From a virus: a DNA stretch of 35,326 nt. The stretch spans positions 1 to 35,326 of the IMG/VR virus record IMGVR_UViG_3300045912_000611. One strand, 5' to 3'. Of this stretch, positions 17,911 through 34,496 are shown piece after piece (the stretch's first letter is position 1; each line of letters opens with the position of its first letter). The notes below the pieces were generated by a model. That model saw only the letters and a program-made list of their open reading frames with translations, had not been told where the DNA came from and did not search any database. A program made the position numbers and the translations under genes.

Positions 17911-18049
17911 GGCGACACCTGCCGAGTCCTTCCGCACAGCGTCGGTTGGCGAGTGGTGTGACAGCCGGAGAGACGGCAAATGACTTTTGGGGGCCGGCGA
18001 CACCTGCCGGCGGTAAACAAAAAGTGGAGTGACAGCCGGAGAGACGGCA
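17911..18049. repeat. Paired direct repeats upstream of the LexA-type gene
   Basis: A 21-bp sequence starting GTGACAGCCGGAGAGACG occurs at 17958-17978 and 18029-18049, and a 13-bp sequence GGCGACACCTGCC at 17911-17923 and 17996-18008. Between the long repeats a GCCGG/CCGGC hairpin and an A-rich stretch are seen. The 167-nt gap holds no gene. Operators or a replication or partition site are the likely roles. Confidence 0.7.
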
Positions 18050-18067
18050 TGCTTCACGAGGAATCAC

Positions 18068-18346
18068 ATGAGCAAGGCAACCAAACCCAAGGGAGACCTG
18101 ACGCCGCGGCAGCGGGACATCTACCGCTTCGTGCGGCGGCACGTGCTGGCCAAGCAGCGTCCTCCGACCTTGCGTGAGATCATAGAGGCATTCGATCTGG
18201 CCTCGACTAACGGCGTCCAGGGGCACCTGCGGGCTATGGTCCGTAAGGGATGGCTGGTTGCCGAGGAGAATAGGAAAGGGCTTTGGAATCGCTATCGGAT
18301 CGTTGGTTTGCAATGTCCGTACTGCGGCAAGGCGCTGGCATCATGA
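18068..18346 (+). CDS. LexA-type winged-helix protein without protease domain
   Basis: ATG 18068 follows AGGA and lies 18 nt after the second 21-bp repeat. The 92 residues contain the LexA N-terminal DNA-binding domain: 'LTPRQRDIYRFVRRHV', 'RPPTLREIIEAFDLASTNGV' and 'GHLRAMVRKGWL'. These closely match the LexA pattern 'LTxRQ..iy.fI', 'RPPT.rEIa..l.l.S.NgV..HL..L.rKG'. The Ser/Lys autoprotease domain is absent; the protein ends in a half zinc-ribbon 'CPYCGKAL'. It cannot self-cleave, so it may act as a constitutive repressor or compete at host SOS boxes. The two long direct repeats upstream are candidate operators. Confidence 0.8.
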   Translation: MSKATKPKGDLTPRQRDIYRFVRRHVLAKQRPPTLREIIEAFDLASTNGVQGHLRAMVRKGWLVAEENRKGLWNRYRIVGLQCPYCGKALAS

Positions 18347-19427: not shown

Positions 19428-20074
19428 GCCCCGACGAGTTCAGGTTGTGGTACAAGACGCACCGGGCTTCGTTTCCCGAGATCGATTCCTGGTTGTCCCG
19501 GCAACCCAACCGCCAGGAGGTGCTCGAAAGCTGGAGGGCCACGCTGGCACAGATCGACTTCAGCGATGCCTGTTCGGTGTCGGAGCAGATGGGCTTCGGT
19601 GAGATTTCTGCGCCACGCGTGTTCGGCGACACAGCCCGCCAGGTGCGTCGTGCAGCACGCGAACTAGTGGCCCAGCGGATGCACGCTGCCCAGCGAACGC
19701 GGCGCATCGTCGATGGCCTGCGGACGGTGCGTTGCCGGGACTGCGAGGACGATGGTTACGTGCTGTGCTGGCATCCTCGCTCGGTCGCTTATGCCCGACA
19801 CCATCGGGCCAGTGGACCGAAGTTCAAGAGCTACACGGTGCTGGTCGTATGCGCTTGCGAGGCCGGCAATGAGCGACTGAAGCAGCGCTGGGCGCAGGAG
19901 GTGCGTGCCTCTGGCCAACAGCCTCCGCGCTACGAACCGCGGCGCTGGTGCCGGATTACGAAGCTGCGATACGCAGAACAGCTCCAGGAGTTGCTCGATT
20001 GGTGTACCGAGACAGCCTGCGTCGAGAGCACGGCGGACAATTTCCAGTGGGCAGGAGCCGGAAAGGATTTTTGA
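19424..20074 (+). CDS. Cys-motif replication accessory protein
   Basis: ATG 19424 overlaps the previous stop as ATGA; the product is 216 residues. The N-terminal 105 residues are helical. At about 105-145 a zinc-binding-like set appears: 'CRDCEDDGYVLCWHPRS' followed by 'VVCACEAG'. This resembles the CxxCxDxG...CxC zinc motifs of phage helicase loaders and DnaJ-like proteins. Position between the initiator and the helicase suggests a loader role; no Walker motif is present, so it is not a DnaC ATPase. The stop shares one base with the helicase start. Confidence 0.6.
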   Translation: MSPDEFRLWYKTHRASFPEIDSWLSRQPNRQEVLESWRATLAQIDFSDACSVSEQMGFGEISAPRVFGDTARQVRRAARELVAQRMHAAQRTRRIVDGLRTVRCRDCEDDGYVLCWHPRSVAYARHHRASGPKFKSYTVLVVCACEAGNERLKQRWAQEVRASGQQPPRYEPRRWCRITKLRYAEQLQELLDWCTETACVESTADNFQWAGAGKDF

Positions 20075-22587
20075 TGCGACTCACGTTGTCGCCGGACCGG
20101 ATCGAAGACTATCGCCTGTTCCTGCGGATCAAGGCGCTGCCTAAGTACGCGATTCGCGGACGCGTGGCCGAGTTCCCGGACGAGTACGCCGAGACGCTCG
20201 GCTTGGGAGTCGAGCAAGCAACGCACGCGAAGTACGAGCCGCTGCCGGGGCTGTTCGACTACCAGCGGGACATCGCGCGGATGGCGATCGAGAAACGTAA
20301 GTTCGGCGTGTTCGCCGATCCAGGTTTGGGGAAGACGCTGGTGATGCTCGAGTTCGCGCGCCACGTGGCCGAGAACCGACCTCGCAAGAAGAAGCTGCTC
20401 GTCTCACCGCTGATGGTCATCGACCAGACGCTCTCGGAATGTCGGCGATTCTACGGAACGGGTTTGCCGATCGAGCAAATTCCAGCGTCCGCATTGCCGG
20501 GCTGGCTGCGCGAGGAGGGCGGCCAGATCGGAATCACGAACTACGAGGCGATCGTGGACGGCCTGACCGGTGAGAATCTGGCGGCGGTGCTATGTGATGA
20601 GAGTTCGGTGATGAAGTCTGCGACTGGCAAATGGGCCAAGCGTCTGATCGACCTGGCGGCTGGCGTGGAGTACAAGTTGGCCCTCACGGGAACCCCGGCC
20701 CCCAACGATCGGATCGAATACGCCAACCACGCCGTGTTCCTGGATCAGTTCCCCACGGTCAATTCGTTCCTGGCTCGCTACTTCGTGAATCGCGGCCAGA
20801 CTCAAGAACGCTGGGAGATCAAGCAGCACGCGATCGGTGCCTTCTACCGCTCGCTCTCGCATTGGTGCATCTTCCTGAGCAATCCGGCGGTCTACGGTTG
20901 GCAAGACAACGTGGGCAGCATCCCTCCGATCCAGGTCCACATTCACGACGTGCCGCTGACGGCCGAGCAAGATCGGCTGGCTCGCAAGCAGACCGGCACG
21001 CTATTCGCCAACAACGTCGGTGGCATCACGCAGCGGCAGGTGCTCAGCAGGCTGAGCAAGGGTCATTACGACGGCCAGAAGATCGAGACGTTAAAGCCGG
21101 CGTTCATCCGCGAACTGATCGCTACTTGGCCGGACGAATCGACGATCATCTGGTGCCTGTACAACGACGAACAGGCGGCGTTGGAGAAGCTGTTTCCCGA
21201 GGCGGCCAGCATCGAAGGCAAGACGCCGCATGCCAAGCGAATGGAGTTGCTGGACGACTTCAAGGCGGGCCGGAGGAAAGTGCTCTTGTCCAAGCCAAAG
21301 GTCCTGGGGTTCGGATTGAATCTGCAAATCGCCACGCGGCAGGTGTTCAGCGGACTGCAAGATTGTTACGACGACGCAACCGAAATTCTGACGCACCGCG
21401 GTTGGATTGGATTCCAAGAGCTGGCTGCAGAGCCATGTCAGGTTGCGACGGTCAATCCACGAACGCTCGGCTTCGAGTGGCAAGAGCCATCGCGAGTCAT
21501 TTGCTCTGAGCATGTTGGTCCAATGGTTAGGTTTATTGGCCAACGAAACTTCGATCTGCTGGTCACGCCGAATCATCGGATGTTCGTTCAGAGGTGTCCG
21601 CTGCGGTACCCCAGCAGCAATGGGCAATGGCAGATTCGGCATGCGGGAGAACTGGCCGAGTCGTTTAAGCGACAGGAATACAGAATGCTGTCTTGTCCCG
21701 CATTCTTCGTCGGCGAGCGGCCGGACATGATCGAAAACGACTATGAAGTCGTTCGTCCGGCGGCAGCTAAAACGATTGCGTCCATCGGAACGGAGGATGC
21801 GGTGCGATTGGCAGCGTGGTACTTGACCAAAGGTTACTGCCGACCGCGAGGGACCCCAGAATTCGGTCGAATCGTGATTTGCCAGACAGACGTCAACCCA
21901 GAAAACCGCAAGGAGATCATTTGCCTTCTTGGGCGAATCGCTGGCCACGTGAACTCGCACGCGAAAGACATCCAGTGCTACTCTCGTCATTTGGCAACTT
22001 GGTTGCTCGAAGAATTCGGCCATGGATCGCATAACATGCGAATGCCATATTGGCTGAAAAATCTCGACGGTCCGTTGCTCGTGCTGCTGCGGGACACGAT
22101 GATGCGTGGCGACGGAATTAGCGGAGGTCGTGCGTACCGAACTGCCAGCCGGTCGTTGGCCGATGACTTCCAAGAAATCTGTCTCAAGACCGGCTGGCGG
22201 GCTTCCGTAAAGCAGCGAATTGGTGTTTGCCGTCGGTACCCGAATGACGTTGTGTTCGACGTGACGCTAGCCAAACAGAACACGCGGCCGAGCATTTTCG
22301 TGGAGCCGGAGATCGAAGACTACTCGGGCATGATCGGTTGTGTTACGGTGCCAAATGGACTCGTGCTCGTTCGCCGCAACGGCATTCCCGTGGTGAGTGG
22401 TAATAGCTACGAATCGTTCTATCAAGCCGTAAAACGCTCCAACCGCGTGGGCTCGACGCGGCCGCTCAACGTCCACATCCCTGTGACCGACCTCGAAAGG
22501 CCGATGGTGGAGAATGTCCTACGAAAAGCCCACAACGTCGAGCGCGACACCGCCGAGCAAGAGGCGTTGTTCAGGGCTGGACGCTGA
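20074..22587 (+). CDS. SF2/SNF2-type helicase interrupted by an intein
   Basis: ATG 20074 shares an A with the upstream TGA and follows AAAGGA. The precursor is 837 residues. Helicase motifs are I 'FADPGLGKT' (80-88), II DESS (175-178), III 'LTGTPAPN' (204-211) and V 'KVLGFGLNLQIATR' (about 409-422). Motif VI-like 'YQAVKRSNRVGSTRPLN' comes after residue 780. Residues 431-777 are an intein; splicing would join 'FSGLQD' to 'SYESFYQAVKR' and give a 490-residue enzyme, a normal size for this phage family. It likely remodels or unwinds DNA during replication or recombination. The methyltransferase that follows may work with it. Confidence 0.85.
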   Translation: MRLTLSPDRIEDYRLFLRIKALPKYAIRGRVAEFPDEYAETLGLGVEQATHAKYEPLPGLFDYQRDIARMAIEKRKFGVFADPGLGKTLVMLEFARHVAENRPRKKKLLVSPLMVIDQTLSECRRFYGTGLPIEQIPASALPGWLREEGGQIGITNYEAIVDGLTGENLAAVLCDESSVMKSATGKWAKRLIDLAAGVEYKLALTGTPAPNDRIEYANHAVFLDQFPTVNSFLARYFVNRGQTQERWEIKQHAIGAFYRSLSHWCIFLSNPAVYGWQDNVGSIPPIQVHIHDVPLTAEQDRLARKQTGTLFANNVGGITQRQVLSRLSKGHYDGQKIETLKPAFIRELIATWPDESTIIWCLYNDEQAALEKLFPEAASIEGKTPHAKRMELLDDFKAGRRKVLLSKPKVLGFGLNLQIATRQVFSGLQDCYDDATEILTHRGWIGFQELAAEPCQVATVNPRTLGFEWQEPSRVICSEHVGPMVRFIGQRNFDLLVTPNHRMFVQRCPLRYPSSNGQWQIRHAGELAESFKRQEYRMLSCPAFFVGERPDMIENDYEVVRPAAAKTIASIGTEDAVRLAAWYLTKGYCRPRGTPEFGRIVICQTDVNPENRKEIICLLGRIAGHVNSHAKDIQCYSRHLATWLLEEFGHGSHNMRMPYWLKNLDGPLLVLLRDTMMRGDGISGGRAYRTASRSLADDFQEICLKTGWRASVKQRIGVCRRYPNDVVFDVTLAKQNTRPSIFVEPEIEDYSGMIGCVTVPNGLVLVRRNGIPVVSGNSYESFYQAVKRSNRVGSTRPLNVHIPVTDLERPMVENVLRKAHNVERDTAEQEALFRAGR
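21364..22404 (+). mobile_element. 347-residue intein with LAGLIDADG endonuclease region
   Basis: The element runs from Cys431 to Asn777 of the helicase precursor. Block A is 'CYDDATEILTHRGWIGFQEL'. Block B is 'DLLVTPNHRMFV' with T498 and H501. Block F/G is 'GCVTVPNGLVLVRRNGIPVV' ending SGN, with Ser778 as the next nucleophile. The usual penultimate His is Gly776. Between them lie two degenerate LAGLIDADG helices: 'LAAWYLTKG' (579-587) and 'LLRDTMMRGDG' (about 671-681). The first has Lys586 where an acidic catalytic residue is expected; the second keeps Asp680. Base composition is visibly richer in A and T than the flanking helicase, which suggests transfer. Confidence 0.88.
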
Positions 22588-22723
22588 ACGCATCGCCGAG
22601 ATGCGGGCGTTCACGAAGCTCTACGGTTCTGCCAACCGCTGGACGGGGACGTTAGGAACCGCGGCCACTTACATTCACGAGCTGCTGGAAGAAAGGGAAG
22701 CCGATGGCAGACATCTTGGGTGA
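22514..22723 (+). CDS. Small helical protein between helicase and methyltransferase
   Basis: The frame runs to 69 residues if ATG 22514 is used, overlapping the helicase end by 74 nt. ATG 22601 would give 40 residues and no long overlap. The conserved-looking part is 'AEMRAFTKLYGSANRWTGTL' through 'YIHELLEEREADG'. No ribosome site clearly decides the start. It overlaps the methyltransferase start by 20 nt. Unknown function. Confidence 0.4.
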   Translation: MSYEKPTTSSATPPSKRRCSGLDAERIAEMRAFTKLYGSANRWTGTLGTAATYIHELLEEREADGRHLG

Positions 22724-23609
22724 GAAAAACTGGCAAATCGAGTTGGGCGACTGCATCGAGATCATGCACGATATGCCGCCGGCGTCGGTGGACTTCGCCG
22801 TGTTCTCTCCGCCGTTCCCGAGCCTGTTCGCCTACACCAGCGAGATGGCAGACATCGGGAACAACGAGGATCTGCGGGGAGAGGCCAAGCTGCACCTGTC
22901 CTGGTTCTACCGTGGACTGGCCCGCGTGCTGAAGCCCGGCCGCGTGGCTGTGGTCCACGTGACTCAGATTCCTGGGCTAGCGCGCAACGGCGAGAAGGGC
23001 ACCTTCGACTTCCGCGGCCTGAACATCCGGCTCGGCCAGCGGGCGGGGATGATCTACCAGTACGATTGGTTGATTGGGAAAAACCCGCAAGCACAGGCCA
23101 TCCGCACGCATTCCCACAAACTTCTGTTCGTCACTTTGGAGCGGGACCGCGCACAGACCTGCGGGGCGATGGGCGACTACCTGATCAAGTTCATCAACGA
23201 TGGGGAAAACGCGGTGCCGATCGACTCCAAGGGCGAGATCAGCCGGCAAGACTGGATCGACTGGGCAGAGGCATCGTGGCCCTGGACCCAAATTCGGGAG
23301 ACCGACACGCTCAACACCAAGGCCGCCAAGAGCGAGAGCGATGTGAAGCACATTGCTCCGTTGCAGCTCAAAGTCATTCATCGGCTCGTCAAGCTCTACA
23401 GCAATCCTGGCGAGATCGTGTTCAGTCCGTTCGCTGGCATCGGCTCGGAAGGATACGAGGCCGTGAAGCTCGGGCGGCGGTTCTTCGGCTGCGAGCTGAA
23501 GCCGGAATATCACACCGAGGCCCTGCGCAACTTGACCAAGGCCACGACGGCGGCCAAGGAGCGGGAGCGGACGCTGTGGGATCTGGTGGAGTCCACGGCC
23601 AGCGAGTGA
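22704..23609 (+). CDS. DNA methyltransferase, SPPF type (beta class order)
   Basis: The ATG at 22704 follows AAGGGA. The 301 residues have the catalytic motif 'FSPPF' (34-38) near the N-terminus and the AdoMet-binding motif 'FSPFAGIGSEGYEAVKLGRR' at about 240-260, with 'FFGCELKPEY' after it. That order (IV before I) is the beta class, and SPPF/Y is typical of N4-cytosine enzymes, though N6-adenine is not excluded. No partner restriction gene lies beside it, only a small endonuclease, so protection of phage DNA from host restriction is likely. Confidence 0.85.
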   Translation: MADILGEKNWQIELGDCIEIMHDMPPASVDFAVFSPPFPSLFAYTSEMADIGNNEDLRGEAKLHLSWFYRGLARVLKPGRVAVVHVTQIPGLARNGEKGTFDFRGLNIRLGQRAGMIYQYDWLIGKNPQAQAIRTHSHKLLFVTLERDRAQTCGAMGDYLIKFINDGENAVPIDSKGEISRQDWIDWAEASWPWTQIRETDTLNTKAAKSESDVKHIAPLQLKVIHRLVKLYSNPGEIVFSPFAGIGSEGYEAVKLGRRFFGCELKPEYHTEALRNLTKATTAAKERERTLWDLVESTASE

Positions 23610-23616
23610 CGTCAGG

Positions 23617-24027
23617 ATGAATCGCGTGAAACCCAAGGTGCTGGACCTGTCGCTATTGCGTCCCGCGCGCCGCCGCAAGTCGCTGCTGAAGAAGACCAGC
23701 GACTTGGAGGAATCGTTCGTCACGCTCTGGCGGCTGCACGGCAGGCCAGAGCAACCGTGCCGCGAGCATCGGTTCCATTCCGAGCGGCGGTGGCGGTTCG
23801 ACTTCGCCTGGCCGTGCTCCAAGGTGGCGGTCGAACTGGACGGCGGGGCCTGGCGGCGCGGCCGGCACCATCGGCCGCAGGGATTCCGCGAGGACTGCCG
23901 TAAGCACAACGCGGCCAGCCTGGCGGGCTGGACGGTGCTGCGGTACACGGCCGAGGACTTGCGAGAACGGCCGCTCCAGATGGTGGAGGAGGTCGTGTGT
24001 GTGTTGGCCGGAAAGGAGGCGCAGTGA
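23617..24027 (+). CDS. Small PD-(D/E)XK endonuclease, DUF559/Vsr-like
   Basis: The 136-residue protein has the DUF559/Vsr-like signature: Glu in 'DLEESFVTLW' (about 31), 'RWRFDFAWP' (Asp about 62), 'VAVELDGG' (E-x-D strand), then 'GRHHRPQGFREDCRKHNAA' and 'GWTVLRYTAEDL'. In related enzymes the acidic residues bind metal and the fold cuts at mismatches or junctions. A role in resolving recombination or in degrading host DNA is inferred. It starts 7 nt after the methyltransferase stop. Confidence 0.8.
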   Translation: MNRVKPKVLDLSLLRPARRRKSLLKKTSDLEESFVTLWRLHGRPEQPCREHRFHSERRWRFDFAWPCSKVAVELDGGAWRRGRHHRPQGFREDCRKHNAASLAGWTVLRYTAEDLRERPLQMVEEVVCVLAGKEAQ

Positions 24028-25837: not shown

Positions 25838-26073
25838 TGATCCGCTCCAGCAAGCAGCGTCGCGGTGGTCTTCCTCGGTCGCAGGAGGAGATTGCCGCCG
25901 CTTGTGCGGCTATTCGGGCGGGCTGGACTGAGGCCGATATCCGCGACCAGCGTTCACGCCGCGGTGTATGGGCCATTCCTCCAGGCTGGATGCCGCCGCG
26001 GGTGACCAGTGCCGTTTGTCTCAACGGGCAGAGCCGTCCTAGTGTGTTCGATCAGGAGGAAGACGAATCATGA
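25828..26073 (+). CDS. Small basic hypothetical protein
   Basis: I chose ATG 25828, which overlaps the upstream stop by 10 nt; the product is 81 residues. It contains 'LPRSQEEIAAACAAIRAGWT' and 'EADIRDQRSRRGVWAIPP', a pattern seen in short phage proteins of unknown function. It is followed by an ATGA overlap with the protease gene. Confidence 0.5.
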   Translation: MRVVIRSSKQRRGGLPRSQEEIAAACAAIRAGWTEADIRDQRSRRGVWAIPPGWMPPRVTSAVCLNGQSRPSVFDQEEDES

Positions 26074-27302
26074 GCGACCCGATCTACACGCTGCCGCCGT
26101 TCACTCTCCAGCTTGCCGCCACGCCGCTGGCCGAGACGTTCGACTGGTGGTACACCGAACTCGGCTTCCCGGAAATCCACAAGACCTATCGCGGCAACGG
26201 GGTCAAGGTCGCCATCCTCGATACCGGATGCGACACGAATCACGGCGATCTGTCGGGCGCGATTGCCGACGCGATCGACCTGACCGGTTCGCCGATCGGC
26301 GTGCGGGATGCTGTCTCCCACGGCACTTGGGTCGCCTGCGCTTTGCTAGCCCGGATCAACAACGTAGGTGGCGCAGGCGTGCTGCCCGAGGGCCAGGGCT
26401 ACATCGCCAAGGTGCTGGGTGACAACGGCTCGGGTTCGATCCGCTCCATCGTCAACGGCATCGAGTGGGCGATTGCCAAGCGGGTGGACGTGATCAACAT
26501 GAGCCTGGGGTCGCCTAGCGACGACCCGGCTTTACGGGCCGCCTGTCAGCGGGCCGAGTCCGCCGGCATCCGGGTGGTTTGTGCGGCGGGCAACGACGGC
26601 GTGCGCTCGCGGCCTAACTTTCCGGGGGCGCTGCCAACGACCGTGGCGGTGGGCGCGGTCAATCGCGCCGGCGAACTTGCGCCGTTCAGCTCGCGTGGGC
26701 CCTACGTCGATATCGTCACCTTCGGCGTGGACATGCTCGCCGGGATTAACGGCGGCGGCTACGGCCGCATGTCCGGCAGCTCGATGGCAAGTCCTATCGC
26801 CGCTGGCGTGGCGGGCTTGCTGATCGAAATGCACCGCCGGACGCCGAACCACAAGACGCCGATTACCAACGTCCAGCAGCTCATCGAGCACCTCAAGCGC
26901 GGGGCCCGCGACGCCGGCCCGCCGGGGCGCGACGTGGGGTACGGCTGGGGCGTGATCAACCCGCGGACGATTCTCGAGCCCGAGGCACCGCCGGTGCAAT
27001 CGCCGCCAGCGCCCGAGCCCGGCCAGCCGGTGCCGAGGGCCGCGATCGAAATCAACCTGGGGATGGGGCTCGTGTTTCACGTGCCGGCCCAGCCGGGCGA
27101 CATCGTGACCGGCGGCCTGGGGCTCAAGCTGGGCGAGCCGCTCGATTCGCGGCTGGACGGCGAGCTGCTGCTACGGCAGTTGCAGCAGGCGGCCGAATTG
27201 GAGCTATGCCTAGAGGAACACCCAGCCGAGGAGTGCGTGGACTGGCTCGAAACCTGGCCTGGCGACCATAGCAACGAAGAAGAAGGGGAGGCGACTCCGT
27301 GA
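26070..27302 (+). CDS. Subtilisin-like serine protease (S8), without secretion signal
   Basis: The 410-residue protein has the complete S8 catalytic set: Asp51 in 'VAILDTGCD', His84 in 'AVSHGTW', oxyanion Asn175 in 'CAAGNDG', and Ser238 in 'GSSMASPIAAGVAG'. No signal peptide or inhibitory prodomain is seen; the catalytic domain starts within 40 residues. A Pro-rich linker (about 308-325) leads to a 90-residue C-terminal tail ending in an acidic stretch 'EEEGEATP'. It could act inside the host cell on host or phage proteins. The genes around it are a Cys-rich protein operon and a sigma factor, all translationally coupled, so cleavage of a regulator is one idea; processing of virion proteins is another. 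Confidence 0.9.
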   Translation: MSDPIYTLPPFTLQLAATPLAETFDWWYTELGFPEIHKTYRGNGVKVAILDTGCDTNHGDLSGAIADAIDLTGSPIGVRDAVSHGTWVACALLARINNVGGAGVLPEGQGYIAKVLGDNGSGSIRSIVNGIEWAIAKRVDVINMSLGSPSDDPALRAACQRAESAGIRVVCAAGNDGVRSRPNFPGALPTTVAVGAVNRAGELAPFSSRGPYVDIVTFGVDMLAGINGGGYGRMSGSSMASPIAAGVAGLLIEMHRRTPNHKTPITNVQQLIEHLKRGARDAGPPGRDVGYGWGVINPRTILEPEAPPVQSPPAPEPGQPVPRAAIEINLGMGLVFHVPAQPGDIVTGGLGLKLGEPLDSRLDGELLLRQLQQAAELELCLEEHPAEECVDWLETWPGDHSNEEEGEATP

Positions 27303-27358
27303 AAAAGCTGCTGTGTGAGTGGGCCGCCAAGCTCCAAGCACTCGAAACGTCGCTATGA
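27299..27358 (+). CDS. 19-residue coupled peptide between protease and sigma factor
   Basis: GTG 27299 overlaps the protease TGA and is preceded by GGGGAGG at about 7-nt spacing. The peptide begins VKKLLCEWAAKLQ and its TGA overlaps the sigma factor ATG. It may be a leader peptide that couples sigma translation rather than a functional protein. Confidence 0.35.
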   Translation: MKKLLCEWAAKLQALETSL

Positions 27359-28176
27359 TTTGCGTGTCGGAACCACCGCCCCAGCCCCGGTCGCTAAAAT
27401 CGCCCGGCACCAGCCGGTCGCTATCGATCGAAGAGGCGCTGCGGCTGGCCAAGTCGGGCCGCCGTGCCGACCGGGCCAGGAAGCGGTTGTCACAGGTCGT
27501 CGGACTCGCGCGGGCGGAGCGGCGGCGGTTGGCGCAGGTGGTCGCCCGCGGAGATCAGGACCGGGCCAGGCTGATCGAATCGGTGTTGCCGATGGTCCGC
27601 CAGATTTCCGTCCGGTTCCTGGTGCCAGGCATCGAGATGGATGATCTGGTGCAGATCGGTTCCGAGGCGGTCGTGCGCTGCGCGGCGAAGTACGGCCTGT
27701 CGGACCGCATCGCCAAGTTCTCGAGCTACAGCCACTGGTCGATTCGCCGGGCGATGCAAAAGGCGGTGACCAACAATTCCGTGGTGACCGTTCCCGACTG
27801 GTGCAATCTGCCTAATGGGCTGGCCAAGTATCGGCCGGCCACGCGCGAGGCCGCCCGGCTGGCCAGGTTCGGCCAGTGTTCGTTGGGCGTGTCGTTGGAA
27901 CGCATGGCCGACCAGCCCCGCGAACACGACGAATGGTTCGCAGACGAGGAGGAGTTCCGTGATCGGCGGAAACTGCGGGCCGCTATCCGGCGGTTGCCGA
28001 ATCGACTGCGGTCCATCATGGCCAGGCGGCTGAAGAACCACACGCTGCGGAAAATCGGCCGTGACCTGGGGATCAGCTACGAATGGGTCAGGCGCTACGA
28101 GACCGAGGCCCTGCGGCGGTTGCGGCAGATGCTCGTGCCTGAGTTGCCCGACGCGGAAGATTGTCGAGAAACCTGA
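27355..28176 (+). CDS. Phage-encoded sigma70-family factor
   Basis: The ATG at 27355 overlaps the small upstream frame as ATGA and gives 273 residues. Region 2 reads 'VPGIEMDDLVQIGSEAVVRC' and then 'KFSSYSHWSIRRAMQKAV', the core-binding and -10-melting helices. The C-terminal region 4 has 'LRSIMARRLKNHTLRKIGRD' and 'LGISYEWVRRYETEALRRLR', a helix-turn-helix for the -35 element. Region 1.1 is absent. It may direct RNA polymerase to phage promoters such as those carrying the CGCTAGAATC element, one of which lies 2 kb downstream. Confidence 0.85.
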   Translation: MICVSEPPPQPRSLKSPGTSRSLSIEEALRLAKSGRRADRARKRLSQVVGLARAERRRLAQVVARGDQDRARLIESVLPMVRQISVRFLVPGIEMDDLVQIGSEAVVRCAAKYGLSDRIAKFSSYSHWSIRRAMQKAVTNNSVVTVPDWCNLPNGLAKYRPATREAARLARFGQCSLGVSLERMADQPREHDEWFADEEEFRDRRKLRAAIRRLPNRLRSIMARRLKNHTLRKIGRDLGISYEWVRRYETEALRRLRQMLVPELPDAEDCRET

Positions 28177-30412: not shown

Positions 30413-31300
30413 ATGCGATACGTGCTACCGCTGGTCCTGCTGCTGGTCCTACCCGCCCCGGCCGAGGCCGGCCGCCGCTGTAATCGCACCTACCAGACGC
30501 TCCGCTCCAGTTATGGCTGGTCGGCGTCGCACGGGTGCTATGCGTGCCATCAGCCGCACGGCCAGAAGCAAGGCGTGTCGCAGATTCTTGGCGGCCTGGC
30601 GGCCAAGCAGAGCGAATACGCGGCCCTGTTGACCGGCCTGGAGCGGCTGGGGTTCCGCCAGACCAGCGCCAACTACGTGACCAGCGGCCAGTATGCCGAG
30701 AGTTACGGCCAAGCGGGCCAGAGCGTCTACGCGTCCGTGCCGCACATCGACGTGATGGCCCTGGGCCAGATGAGCAGCCGCCTGGCCAGTCAGGCCCAGG
30801 AGTTCGCCGGCCAGGCGACGCTCGGCGCGCAAGACCTAGTGGCCCAGGCCCAGCGGGTGGCGGAAATCCAGGCCACCGGCCAGGCGGCAGCGGCGGCCTT
30901 GCGAGCCGCGTCCGGCACGCCGCAGCCCAGCTTCCGCCAGTTCAGCTTCACGACCAAGATCGACCAGAGCGGCAACGTGACGGTCGAACCGCAGCAACCA
31001 GGCGTCGCGGCGCTCGGCTCGCCAGATGACGTGCTGGCCCAGGTCGATGCCGTCGTGCAGGCCAGGTGCGCCAAGTGCCACAACGCCAACGACCACAAGG
31101 GAGAACTGGACCTGACGGCGCTGCGCAGTTGGGCGCCGGCCCAGCAGGCCGAGACGCTGTGGGAATGCTACCGCCGCGTGACGGCCAGCGACCCCAAGGA
31201 GCGGATGCCGCAGCAGGCCGAGCCAATCCCGGCCGACGAATCGGCCGCGTTCGCCCTGGCGGCCGTGCGGCTACGGCAGGAGCGGCAGGGAGGCCAGTAA
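30413..31300 (+). CDS. Secreted two-heme cytochrome-c-like protein
   Basis: A clear signal peptide 'MRYVLPLVLLLVLPAPAEAG' leads the 295 residues. Two heme c motifs are visible: 'CYACH' (42-46) and 'CAKCH' (219-223). The second is followed by 'NANDHKGELDL' and later 'KERMPQQ' (Met265), which matches the planctomycete-type cytochrome pattern 'CxxCHn..dhkG.l.l...MP'. The middle (about 90-170) is Gln/Ala-rich and may be a coiled coil. With the signal it should reach the periplasm or cell surface and be matured by host cytochrome c maturation. Electron transfer or a structural role are both possible. Confidence 0.8.
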   Translation: MRYVLPLVLLLVLPAPAEAGRRCNRTYQTLRSSYGWSASHGCYACHQPHGQKQGVSQILGGLAAKQSEYAALLTGLERLGFRQTSANYVTSGQYAESYGQAGQSVYASVPHIDVMALGQMSSRLASQAQEFAGQATLGAQDLVAQAQRVAEIQATGQAAAAALRAASGTPQPSFRQFSFTTKIDQSGNVTVEPQQPGVAALGSPDDVLAQVDAVVQARCAKCHNANDHKGELDLTALRSWAPAQQAETLWECYRRVTASDPKERMPQQAEPIPADESAAFALAAVRLRQERQGGQ

Positions 31301-32665: not shown

Positions 32666-33031
32666 TTAGGCGACGGCCGCCACTTCGTTTGCCTCACACC
32701 ACTTTTCGAGCGCGTCGAACAGCTTGCCGTCGATCACGTAGCGGAAATTGCCGCCCCGCGTCTTGAGGCTGGCATGGAACCACTCCGCACCGTCGCGCAT
32801 TACACGGTCGTAGTACACGTCACCGGCCTCGCCGCCGTAGACGGGCGAGGAGCCGAAGTCTCCGATGTAGTGCCGGCCACGGCAGCGCACGTAGCCGAAG
32901 GCGTAGGCGTACTCGCCTACCGTCCGGTCGTGTCCCCTGTCGATGGTATTCCGGTCCAGGATCACGTCCGCGCGGAAGGCCCCTCCGCAGCCTTGGATTT
33001 GCGCGTTGCGGATCAGCTCGAATCTGGCCAT
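32666..33031 (-). CDS. Hypothetical leftward early protein
   Basis: From ATG 33031 (AGGA 9 nt before) the product is 121 residues. It begins 'MARFELIRNAQIQGCGGAFR' and has a Tyr/Gly-rich middle, 'EYAYAFGYVRCRGRHYIGDF' and 'VYGGEAGDVYYDRVM', ending in a helical 'DGKLFDALEKWCEANEV'. No family recognised. It is the last gene of the leftward operon that starts at 34127. Confidence 0.6.
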   Translation of the reverse strand: MARFELIRNAQIQGCGGAFRADVILDRNTIDRGHDRTVGEYAYAFGYVRCRGRHYIGDFGSSPVYGGEAGDVYYDRVMRDGAEWFHASLKTRGGNFRYVIDGKLFDALEKWCEANEVAAVA

Positions 33032-33207: not shown

Positions 33208-33720
33208 TCAGTGCATGTCGGCCGCGGAGAGCGAGCCCGAGCCCGGCGGGCCGTGGTCCAGGGTGTCGCGGATCACGCAGTACTGCCGGACGACGGCCCC
33301 GGCGGCGGTCATGTCCTCGGCGGTGTACTCCCGCCCGCGGGGCGCTTCGCCGGCGAACTCGACCGCCAGCACCGAGTGCGCCTCGGCGGCCAGGTGCAGC
33401 GGCAGATTGCCTGCTACCACGCGGCGCCGCACGTCATCGGCGCTCGCCTCGGCCCGGACGGGCGTACCGGGGTAGCGCGCCAGCAGCCAAGCGACGGTTG
33501 CCGGGTGGCGGGAGACGATCAGGTGGGGGACGGCCGGCCCCAGTCCCTTCGGGGTCGGTGTCGGGGTCGGGATCGGGTCATCTGTGGGCGGTCCGCCCGC
33601 CAACTCCATGACGCCGGCCTCGTAGTCGGCGACGAAGTCGTCGCGCTTCTCTTGGTCGCTGCGCGAGTCGGCCCCGAGGCCCGGCCGGTTGCGACCGGTG
33701 GTGAACATGTTTCGGCTCAT
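33208..33720 (-). CDS. Csx16-like protein, candidate phage ring nuclease
   Basis: ATG 33720 has GGAGA 6 nt upstream; 170 residues. A disordered N-terminus with a 'PTPTPTPKG' linker (about 51-59) precedes a domain at 66-150. Its landmarks are 'LIVSRHPATVAWL' (67-79), 'VVAGNLPLHLAAEA' (101-114), 'APRGREYTAEDM' (126-137) and 'GAVVRQYCV' (141-149). This follows the Csx16 (VVA1548) pattern VSRHPxxxxWL ... V.G.LP.HLAAE ... RGrE.s.e.M...GA...Y.V. Csx16 proteins belong to type III CRISPR loci and, as I recall, are ring nucleases acting on cyclic oligoadenylates. In a phage early operon such a domain could be an anti-CRISPR. Related phage forms may have other roles, so activity is inference. Confidence 0.75.
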   Translation of the reverse strand: MSRNMFTTGRNRPGLGADSRSDQEKRDDFVADYEAGVMELAGGPPTDDPIPTPTPTPKGLGPAVPHLIVSRHPATVAWLLARYPGTPVRAEASADDVRRRVVAGNLPLHLAAEAHSVLAVEFAGEAPRGREYTAEDMTAAGAVVRQYCVIRDTLDHGPPGSGSLSAADMH

Positions 33721-33872: not shown

Positions 33873-34067
33873 TCAGGCACGCCAGCGATAATGCTGCCCG
33901 TTGCTTGCCAGGTAGTCGTCACACGACGACTTTCGCCCGTCGATGATCTCGCCCTCGATTTCTTCGATCACCGCCGCGGGGATGTCCCCGCGGGCGATTG
34001 GCCGCCAGTCATGGCCCTGCCCGCTGCGGTCCAGTTGAATTACATGGCCGAGGATGGTTTCGTCCAT
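33873..34067 (-). CDS. First gene of the leftward operon, small acidic protein
   Basis: ATG 34067 follows AAAGGAAG, a strong ribosome site, about 60 nt after the predicted leftward -10. The 64 residues read 'MDETILGHVIQLDRSGQGHD' and 'IPAAVIEEIEGEIIDGRKSS', ending in HYRWRA. No helix-turn-helix is evident, so it is not a normal Cro. Function unknown; its place suggests an early lytic or host-modifying role. Confidence 0.6.
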   Translation of the reverse strand: MDETILGHVIQLDRSGQGHDWRPIARGDIPAAVIEEIEGEIIDGRKSSCDDYLASNGQHYRWRA

Positions 34068-34126
34068 CGTTCTTCCTTTCTTTGTTTTTCTTTGGGGGCC
34101 GCGGCGTGCGTCCCATCTACCCCCTA

Positions 34127-34155
34127 ATATTATCCGCTTCGCCGGACAAAAGCAA
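34127..34155 (-). promoter_or_regulatory. Leftward early promoter
   Basis: On the minus strand TTGCTT (34155-34150), 17-nt spacer, TAATAT (34132-34127). The palindromic operator O1 fills the spacer. Confidence 0.65.
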
Positions 34156-34199
34156 TAGGTCTGTGGGGATTTTTTCCGAATATTTTCCGGCTTGCCGGA
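34133..34199. promoter_or_regulatory. Two palindromic operators of the immunity switch
   Basis: O2 at 34186-34199 is the perfect palindrome TCCGGCTTGCCGGA. O1 at 34133-34146 (TCCGCTTCGCCGGA) matches it at 11 of 14 positions. O1 lies in the leftward promoter spacer and O2 overlaps the rightward -35. Extra TCCG half-sites lie near 34176 and 34206. Confidence 0.6.
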
Positions 34200-34220
34200 T
34201 GCCCTTTCCGGGGCTATACT
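34192..34220 (+). promoter_or_regulatory. Repressor promoter giving a leaderless mRNA
   Basis: TTGCCG (34192-34197), 17-nt spacer, TATACT (34215-34220). The expected start, 7 nt past the -10, is the A of ATG 34227, so the mRNA should lack a leader. Confidence 0.65.
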
Positions 34221-34226
34221 TACGGC

Positions 34227-34496
34227 ATGAGTACCCAGCAAAAATCTCGCGGCCGGCCCTGCGGACCGGTGGCGCCGCGTAGTTTTGGGGCCCGCGTGCG
34301 GCGGGCGCGGCTGGCGGCGGGGCTGAGTCTGGCGGCCCTGGGGGAGGCCGCGGGGCTCTCCGACAGCACGCTCTCCTCGCTCGAGCGCGGCGAGGTCGAT
34401 CCGAAGCTCTCCACCTGCACCCGGCTGGCTGCGGCCCTGGGGCTACCGCTCGAGCGGCTGCTTGGCAGCTGGACTAAGGCTGGGAACGAGGCTTGA
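34227..34496 (+). CDS. XRE-family repressor of the immunity switch
   Basis: The 89-residue protein has an HTH_3 domain at about 19-80: 'FGARVRRARLAAGLSLAALG', 'AAGLSDSTLSSLERGEVDPK' (recognition helix) and 'LAAALGLPLERLLGSW'. No ribosome site precedes the ATG, in keeping with a leaderless message as for lambda cI. The divergent arrangement with operators between the genes marks it as the likely lysogeny repressor. There is no oligomerisation or protease domain, so induction would need another factor. Confidence 0.8.
   Translation: MSTQQKSRGRPCGPVAPRSFGARVRRARLAAGLSLAALGEAAGLSDSTLSSLERGEVDPKLSTCTRLAAALGLPLERLLGSWTKAGNEA

Follow-up and report, generated by a model that had tools for sequence, protein, structure and literature searches.

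A Csx16-family protein encoded by a virus fragment, and its place in a wider viral Csx16 set

The window analysed here, a stretch of 35,326 bases, is an incomplete IMG/VR virus fragment which carries a gene of the Csx16 family. Viral Csx16 is far commoner than the published count. Csx16 degrades cA4 in vitro and is thus a ring nuclease (PMC12409355). Judging by its family, the window protein probably helps the phage to blunt host immunity; that it cuts cyclic oligoadenylate (cOA) is less certain than that it binds it, owing to residue 91, where a histidine found in all cellular members compared is replaced by glutamate. This replacement was missed by the initial annotation of the gene.

The csx16 gene and its protein

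The gene and the parts of its product are the following.

33208..33720, minus strand: Csx16-family gene of 170 aa (ATG at 33720, stop at 33208) with an arm (residues 1-65), a domain (66-150) and a short tail (151-170); PF09652 E 1.5e-8, PADLOC Csx16 1.6e-7, AlphaFold2 pLDDT 85-97 over residues 61-150
33274..33519, minus strand: Csx16 domain, residues 68-149; R71, H72, W78, G104, L106, P107, H109, R128, G129 and E131 are kept, with E91 where His is otherwise common
33526..33720, minus strand: N-terminal arm with a predicted helix at residues 22-41 (pLDDT 68-82), followed by a low-confidence Pro/Thr linker

Membership in the Csx16 family, originally proposed from spaced landmarks in residues 66-150, is confirmed. 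Residues 69-150 align to positions 2-90 of the 91-position PF09652 profile (Cas_VVA1548/Csx16) with 35.1 bits, above the curated cut-off of 25; in the comparison with the other viral records the score, 36.6 bits, is among the lowest. Two PADLOC Csx16 models agree (1.6e-7 and 9.5e-6). PF09652 was the sole Pfam match at E values up to 1, DUF1874 (AcrIII-1) had no sequence match in the window protein, and NCBIfam and PHROGs returned none.

The landmarks are conserved columns of the family: R71, H72, W78, G104-x-L-P-x-H109-L and R128-G129-x-E131. Twelve columns are invariant in all 14 cellular Csx16 proteins compared (R71, H72, G74, W78, H91, G104, L106, P107, A112, R128, G129 and E131). The window protein keeps ten of them, with alanine instead of G74 and glutamate instead of H91, and the glycine at position 99 is also replaced. 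Positions 74 and 91 vary in other viral Csx16 proteins too. The whole domain aligns with cellular Csx16, the best cellular identity being ~37%. In contrast to its cellular counterparts, the window protein is phage-borne, lacks an accompanying Cas10, lacks His91 and possesses a 65-aa arm; a four-residue insert of the C-x-R-G type, which follows HLAAE in the cellular set, is absent.

The N-terminal arm with its Pro/Thr linker, already described in the initial annotation, is probably translated, since a Shine-Dalgarno-like GGAGAG precedes the ATG at 33720 and the third-position GC of the arm (0.88) is close to that of the domain (0.91). Translation from an internal ATG (residue 37/38), whose ribosome site is weaker, would shorten the arm. 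The arm has no relative among the csx16 loci compared. Some phage and plasmid Crn4 proteins have N-terminal extensions of 60-80 aa (PMC12751052, PMC12830947).

The AlphaFold2 model of the domain (pLDDT 85-97) is consistent with a ring-nuclease fold, with all structural matches below Z 8. The best solved structure is that of AFV3-109 (2J6B), an AcrIII-1 relative (Z 5.5, rmsd 2.6, 73 residues) and the structural neighbour reported for Csx16 (PMC12409355). Mixed Rossmann-like proteins including Cam1, Csm6 and the viral SAVED ring nuclease are close behind. For a control model of a cellular Csx16, serine recombinases came first and AFV3-109 ranked 16th at Z 4.8. The structure comparison, which had been suggested as a check, therefore counts as weak support. 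Foldseek alone found no significant match in the PDB or in a viral library.

Csx16 in viruses

A published survey of 28,114 phage genomes found Csx16 in just two (PMC12409355). Within INPHARED, Csx16 was found only in Methanobacterium virus Drs3, under two accessions; that these are the two published genomes is a guess which we do not rely on. The Drs3 protein (AXN53384) resembles the window protein as a Csx16 domain in the leftmost gene group of a tailed virus, but is only ~31% identical and falls outside the clade of the window protein described below.

Searching INPHARED phages by tblastn with the window protein gave no match, nor did an IMG/VR scan with this single protein; degenerate GxLPxHLAAE patterns had to be used instead. 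The diversity of alignments A1 and A2 made them unsuitable as scan queries. IMG/VR yielded 13 records through a degenerate GxLPxHLAAE DNA pattern, 8 through an alignment scan and 23 through a second pattern. These 44 further records and the window all score above the PF09652 cut-off, and Cas10 was found in none of the 45. A large-terminase match is present in 23 of the 44; as such profiles also match many bacterial genomes, viral status rests mainly on IMG/VR. Among the first 22 records, only a few pairs of related ones have genes next to csx16 in common, as would be expected if the gene is portable and confers a benefit by itself.

Csx16 in cells and plasmids

The GxLPLHLAAE peptide pattern gave three confirmed relatives, all from Pseudomonadota, in 257 billion bases of cellular genomes; because a single motif and a single query were used, the viral-over-cellular enrichment is only rough. 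All 14 cellular Csx16 genomes checked have a Cas10-palm match (13 above the cut-off), and in eight it lies on the csx16 contig, within ~14 kb. Three plasmids carry csx16 with no annotated cas genes in the flanks read. One of them, pMESIL02, encodes a protein with two tandem Csx16 domains, resembling a built-in dimer (WP_013159883; L003 3992-4777); its second domain has Glu at the position of residue 91.

Residue 91 and a viral clade of six

A tree of 62 domains was built from 98 columns. Two pairs of records encode identical proteins, and 42 distinct viral domains are present besides the window and Drs3. The deeper forks are poorly resolved because there are only 98 columns for 62 rows. A clean split between viral and cellular clades is not adopted here: three viral proteins lie among the cellular ones, and the cellular sample comprises Pseudomonadota only.

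Five viral proteins (L064, L072, L073, L091 and L124) form a clade with the window protein; its support is 97/86, and it is recovered in 98% of 200 bootstrap trees. Its members are 35-58% identical to the window protein and carry the signature SRH...GNLPLHLAA...EF...PRG.E together with a short loop. All 14 cellular proteins have histidine at residue 91, as do 33 of 42 viral ones, compared with one of six in this clade, where the window has E and the others E, A, S, Q and, in the member from record IMGVR 3300010291_000001, H. The spacing between residue 91 and the GNLP motif is identical in all six. From the secondary structure, the residue would follow the second strand, on the same edge of the sheet as R71-H72 and G104-P107. 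Catalytic residues of Csx16 were not found in the literature surveyed.

With His91 replaced, catalysis by the window protein is less certain than cOA binding. E91 weakens the term 'ring nuclease' relative to 'cyclic-oligoadenylate-binding Csx16-family protein'.

Several viral Csx16 proteins have additional elements. Zinc-ribbon-like cysteine pairs (weak Pfam matches only) precede the domain in L020, L040 and L073 and follow it in L010. A C-terminal domain of ~130 residues (WNDG.G.RGRQ ... KNGKWSN) is common to L072 and L097 (E 3e-19), whose Csx16 domains belong to different clades.

The locus and its candidate operators

The csx16 gene belongs to a leftward group which diverges from a likely regulator gene.

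32666..33031, minus strand: gene C, 121 aa, no significant family; downstream of csx16 in the same leftward group
33873..34067, minus strand: gene A, 64 aa, no family; upstream of csx16 in the same leftward group
34123..34146, plus strand: candidate operator 1, CCTAATATTATCCGCTTCGCCGGA
34176..34199, plus strand: candidate operator 2, CCGAATATTTTCCGGCTTGCCGGA, containing the inverted repeat TCCGGC-TT-GCCGGA
34192..34220, plus strand: sigma-70-like promoter match for the helix-turn-helix gene (consensus match only), overlapping operator 2
34227..34496, plus strand: Xre/Cro-type helix-turn-helix gene, divergent, likely regulator; PF01381 E 3.9e-14

The candidate operators are two 24-nt repeats, 79% identical, between the Xre-type gene and the leftward genes. 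When the 156-bp gap was shuffled 6,570 times with its dinucleotides preserved, a repeat pair this good appeared 5 times. The Xre-type regulator probably controls the leftward group at these two sites. An operon expressed early from an immunity-type promoter had been proposed; a divergent repressor-operator arrangement is indeed supported, but 'early' and 'immunity-type' overreach. Early expression is not evident from the sequence, in which the recombination and replication genes are on the other strand, at ~15-24 kb.

Other genes of the virus fragment

The record encodes a tape measure protein, a methyltransferase, an SNF2-type helicase, a Sak4-like annealing protein, an exonuclease and replication-initiation proteins. 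Cas10 is absent from this incomplete fragment, where csx16 is not near a type III CRISPR locus, and one scan detected no CRISPR-like array of at least three repeats; the earlier statement that CRISPR genes are lacking is supported as regards Cas10. A terminase search of the record gave no match. The tape-measure scan returned no close relative of the phage, and a plasmid similarity search found no host. A planctomycete-type cytochrome c domain (PSCyt1, 30413-31300, plus strand, E 1.2e-7) may be a hint of a planctomycete host.

Further features of the record deserve mention. The SNF2-type helicase gene (19948-22587, plus strand) contains an interruption of ~330 residues with intein-like ends (CYDDATEILTHRGW ... 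VVSGNS), for which Pfam gave no intein match. A DNA methyltransferase (22704-23609, plus strand) is followed by a DUF559 protein (23617-24027, plus strand), and the two are perhaps a restriction-modification-like or counter-restriction pair. A subtilase-family protease (26070-27302, plus strand, E 4.9e-48) adjoins a sigma-70-like factor (27319-28176, plus strand), an unusual phage cargo. A 27-nt direct repeat (17952-17978 and 18023-18049; 96% identical, 71 bases apart), just upstream of the gene for a LexA-like repressor (18029-18346), probably represents operators.

Function of the window protein

Phage ring nucleases that act as anti-CRISPRs have precedents in AcrIII-1 and AcrIII-2 (PMC12409355, PMC12751052). 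AcrIII-1 (DUF1874; AFV3-109, 2J6B) has a viral Rossmann-like fold and provides the nearest solved structure (Z 5.5), but is a different sequence family without detectable similarity to the window protein. AcrIII-2 (the viral SAVED ring nuclease) and phage Crn4b are likewise phage proteins that degrade cOA, with different folds and families.

The reading we favour, with some reserve, is that the window protein is a counter-defence against type III CRISPR which removes cOA. The data directly support that the protein belongs to the family and keeps conserved residues, that it is encoded in a viral record lacking Cas10, and that the repeats exist; the sequence of events would be as follows. During infection, a presumed host Cas10 would produce cyclic oligoadenylate, chiefly cA4. 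The phage protein, which is probably dimeric, would bind cA4 in a pocket where the strands of the sheet have their carboxyl ends, formed by R71, H72, residue 91, G104-L-P107 and R128-G129. Cleavage, or at the least sequestration, would remove the cOA before the toxic effectors reach full activation. The divergent Xre-type regulator probably controls the leftward genes from the two 24-nt sites, and the phage would be the beneficiary. Of the role put forward at the outset, a type III anti-CRISPR ring nuclease, the anti-CRISPR part is the most likely one given the family and the 45 viral records without Cas10, while the ring-nuclease part is weakened by E91.

The replacement of His91 in five of the six clade members (the sixth has His), at a position predicted to share its edge of the sheet with R71-H72 and G104-P107, leaves some room for a variant, which we consider distinctly less probable, in which this clade has given up the histidine and either acts as a cA4 sponge or prefers another cOA, still opposing type III immunity. 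Csx15 offers a parallel as a good cA4 binder and very slow nuclease (PMC13148439). However, R71, H72, H109, R128 and G129 are retained in the window protein, and sponging has been argued to be poor against type III systems since much cOA is made (PMC13148439). A broader version of this idea is tentative: phages may have a large Csx16 pool of their own, mostly apart from the sampled cellular set, with one clade that lacks the invariant histidine and bears added domains; that clade may constitute a new type of anti-CRISPR with a changed mechanism (cOA binding or another ring size).

It is unlikely that csx16, instead of being a weapon of infection, is cargo that serves the host or a prophage, for instance by curbing the toxicity of a host type III system to its own cell. 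The divergent helix-turn-helix gene and the candidate operators do resemble a lysogeny-type control region, and cellular Csx16 is a self-limiting off-switch (PMC12409355), but a scan of window proteins identified no integrase, and the spread of csx16 over otherwise unrelated viral records without Cas10 fits counter-defence better. Very improbable is an unrelated or decayed protein, its match owed to a degenerate copy or to the ankyrin-like GNLPLHLAAE. Profile searches of solved structures do return designed ankyrin proteins through this single motif. An ankyrin is ruled out, however, by the Pfam match, which covers 89 of 91 positions, and by the model, which has no ankyrin helices and alternates strands and helices in a five-strand, Csx16-like order; furthermore, relatives at 52-58% identity share the whole Csx16 domain with the window protein.

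Implications for viral Csx16

Two published viral anti-CRISPR ring nucleases are named, AcrIII-1 and AcrIII-2. If viral Csx16 acts in the same way as these, it would be a third and much broader viral set directed against type III signalling. The clade with replacements at residue 91 offers a natural experiment for telling the Csx16 residues that bind from those that cut.
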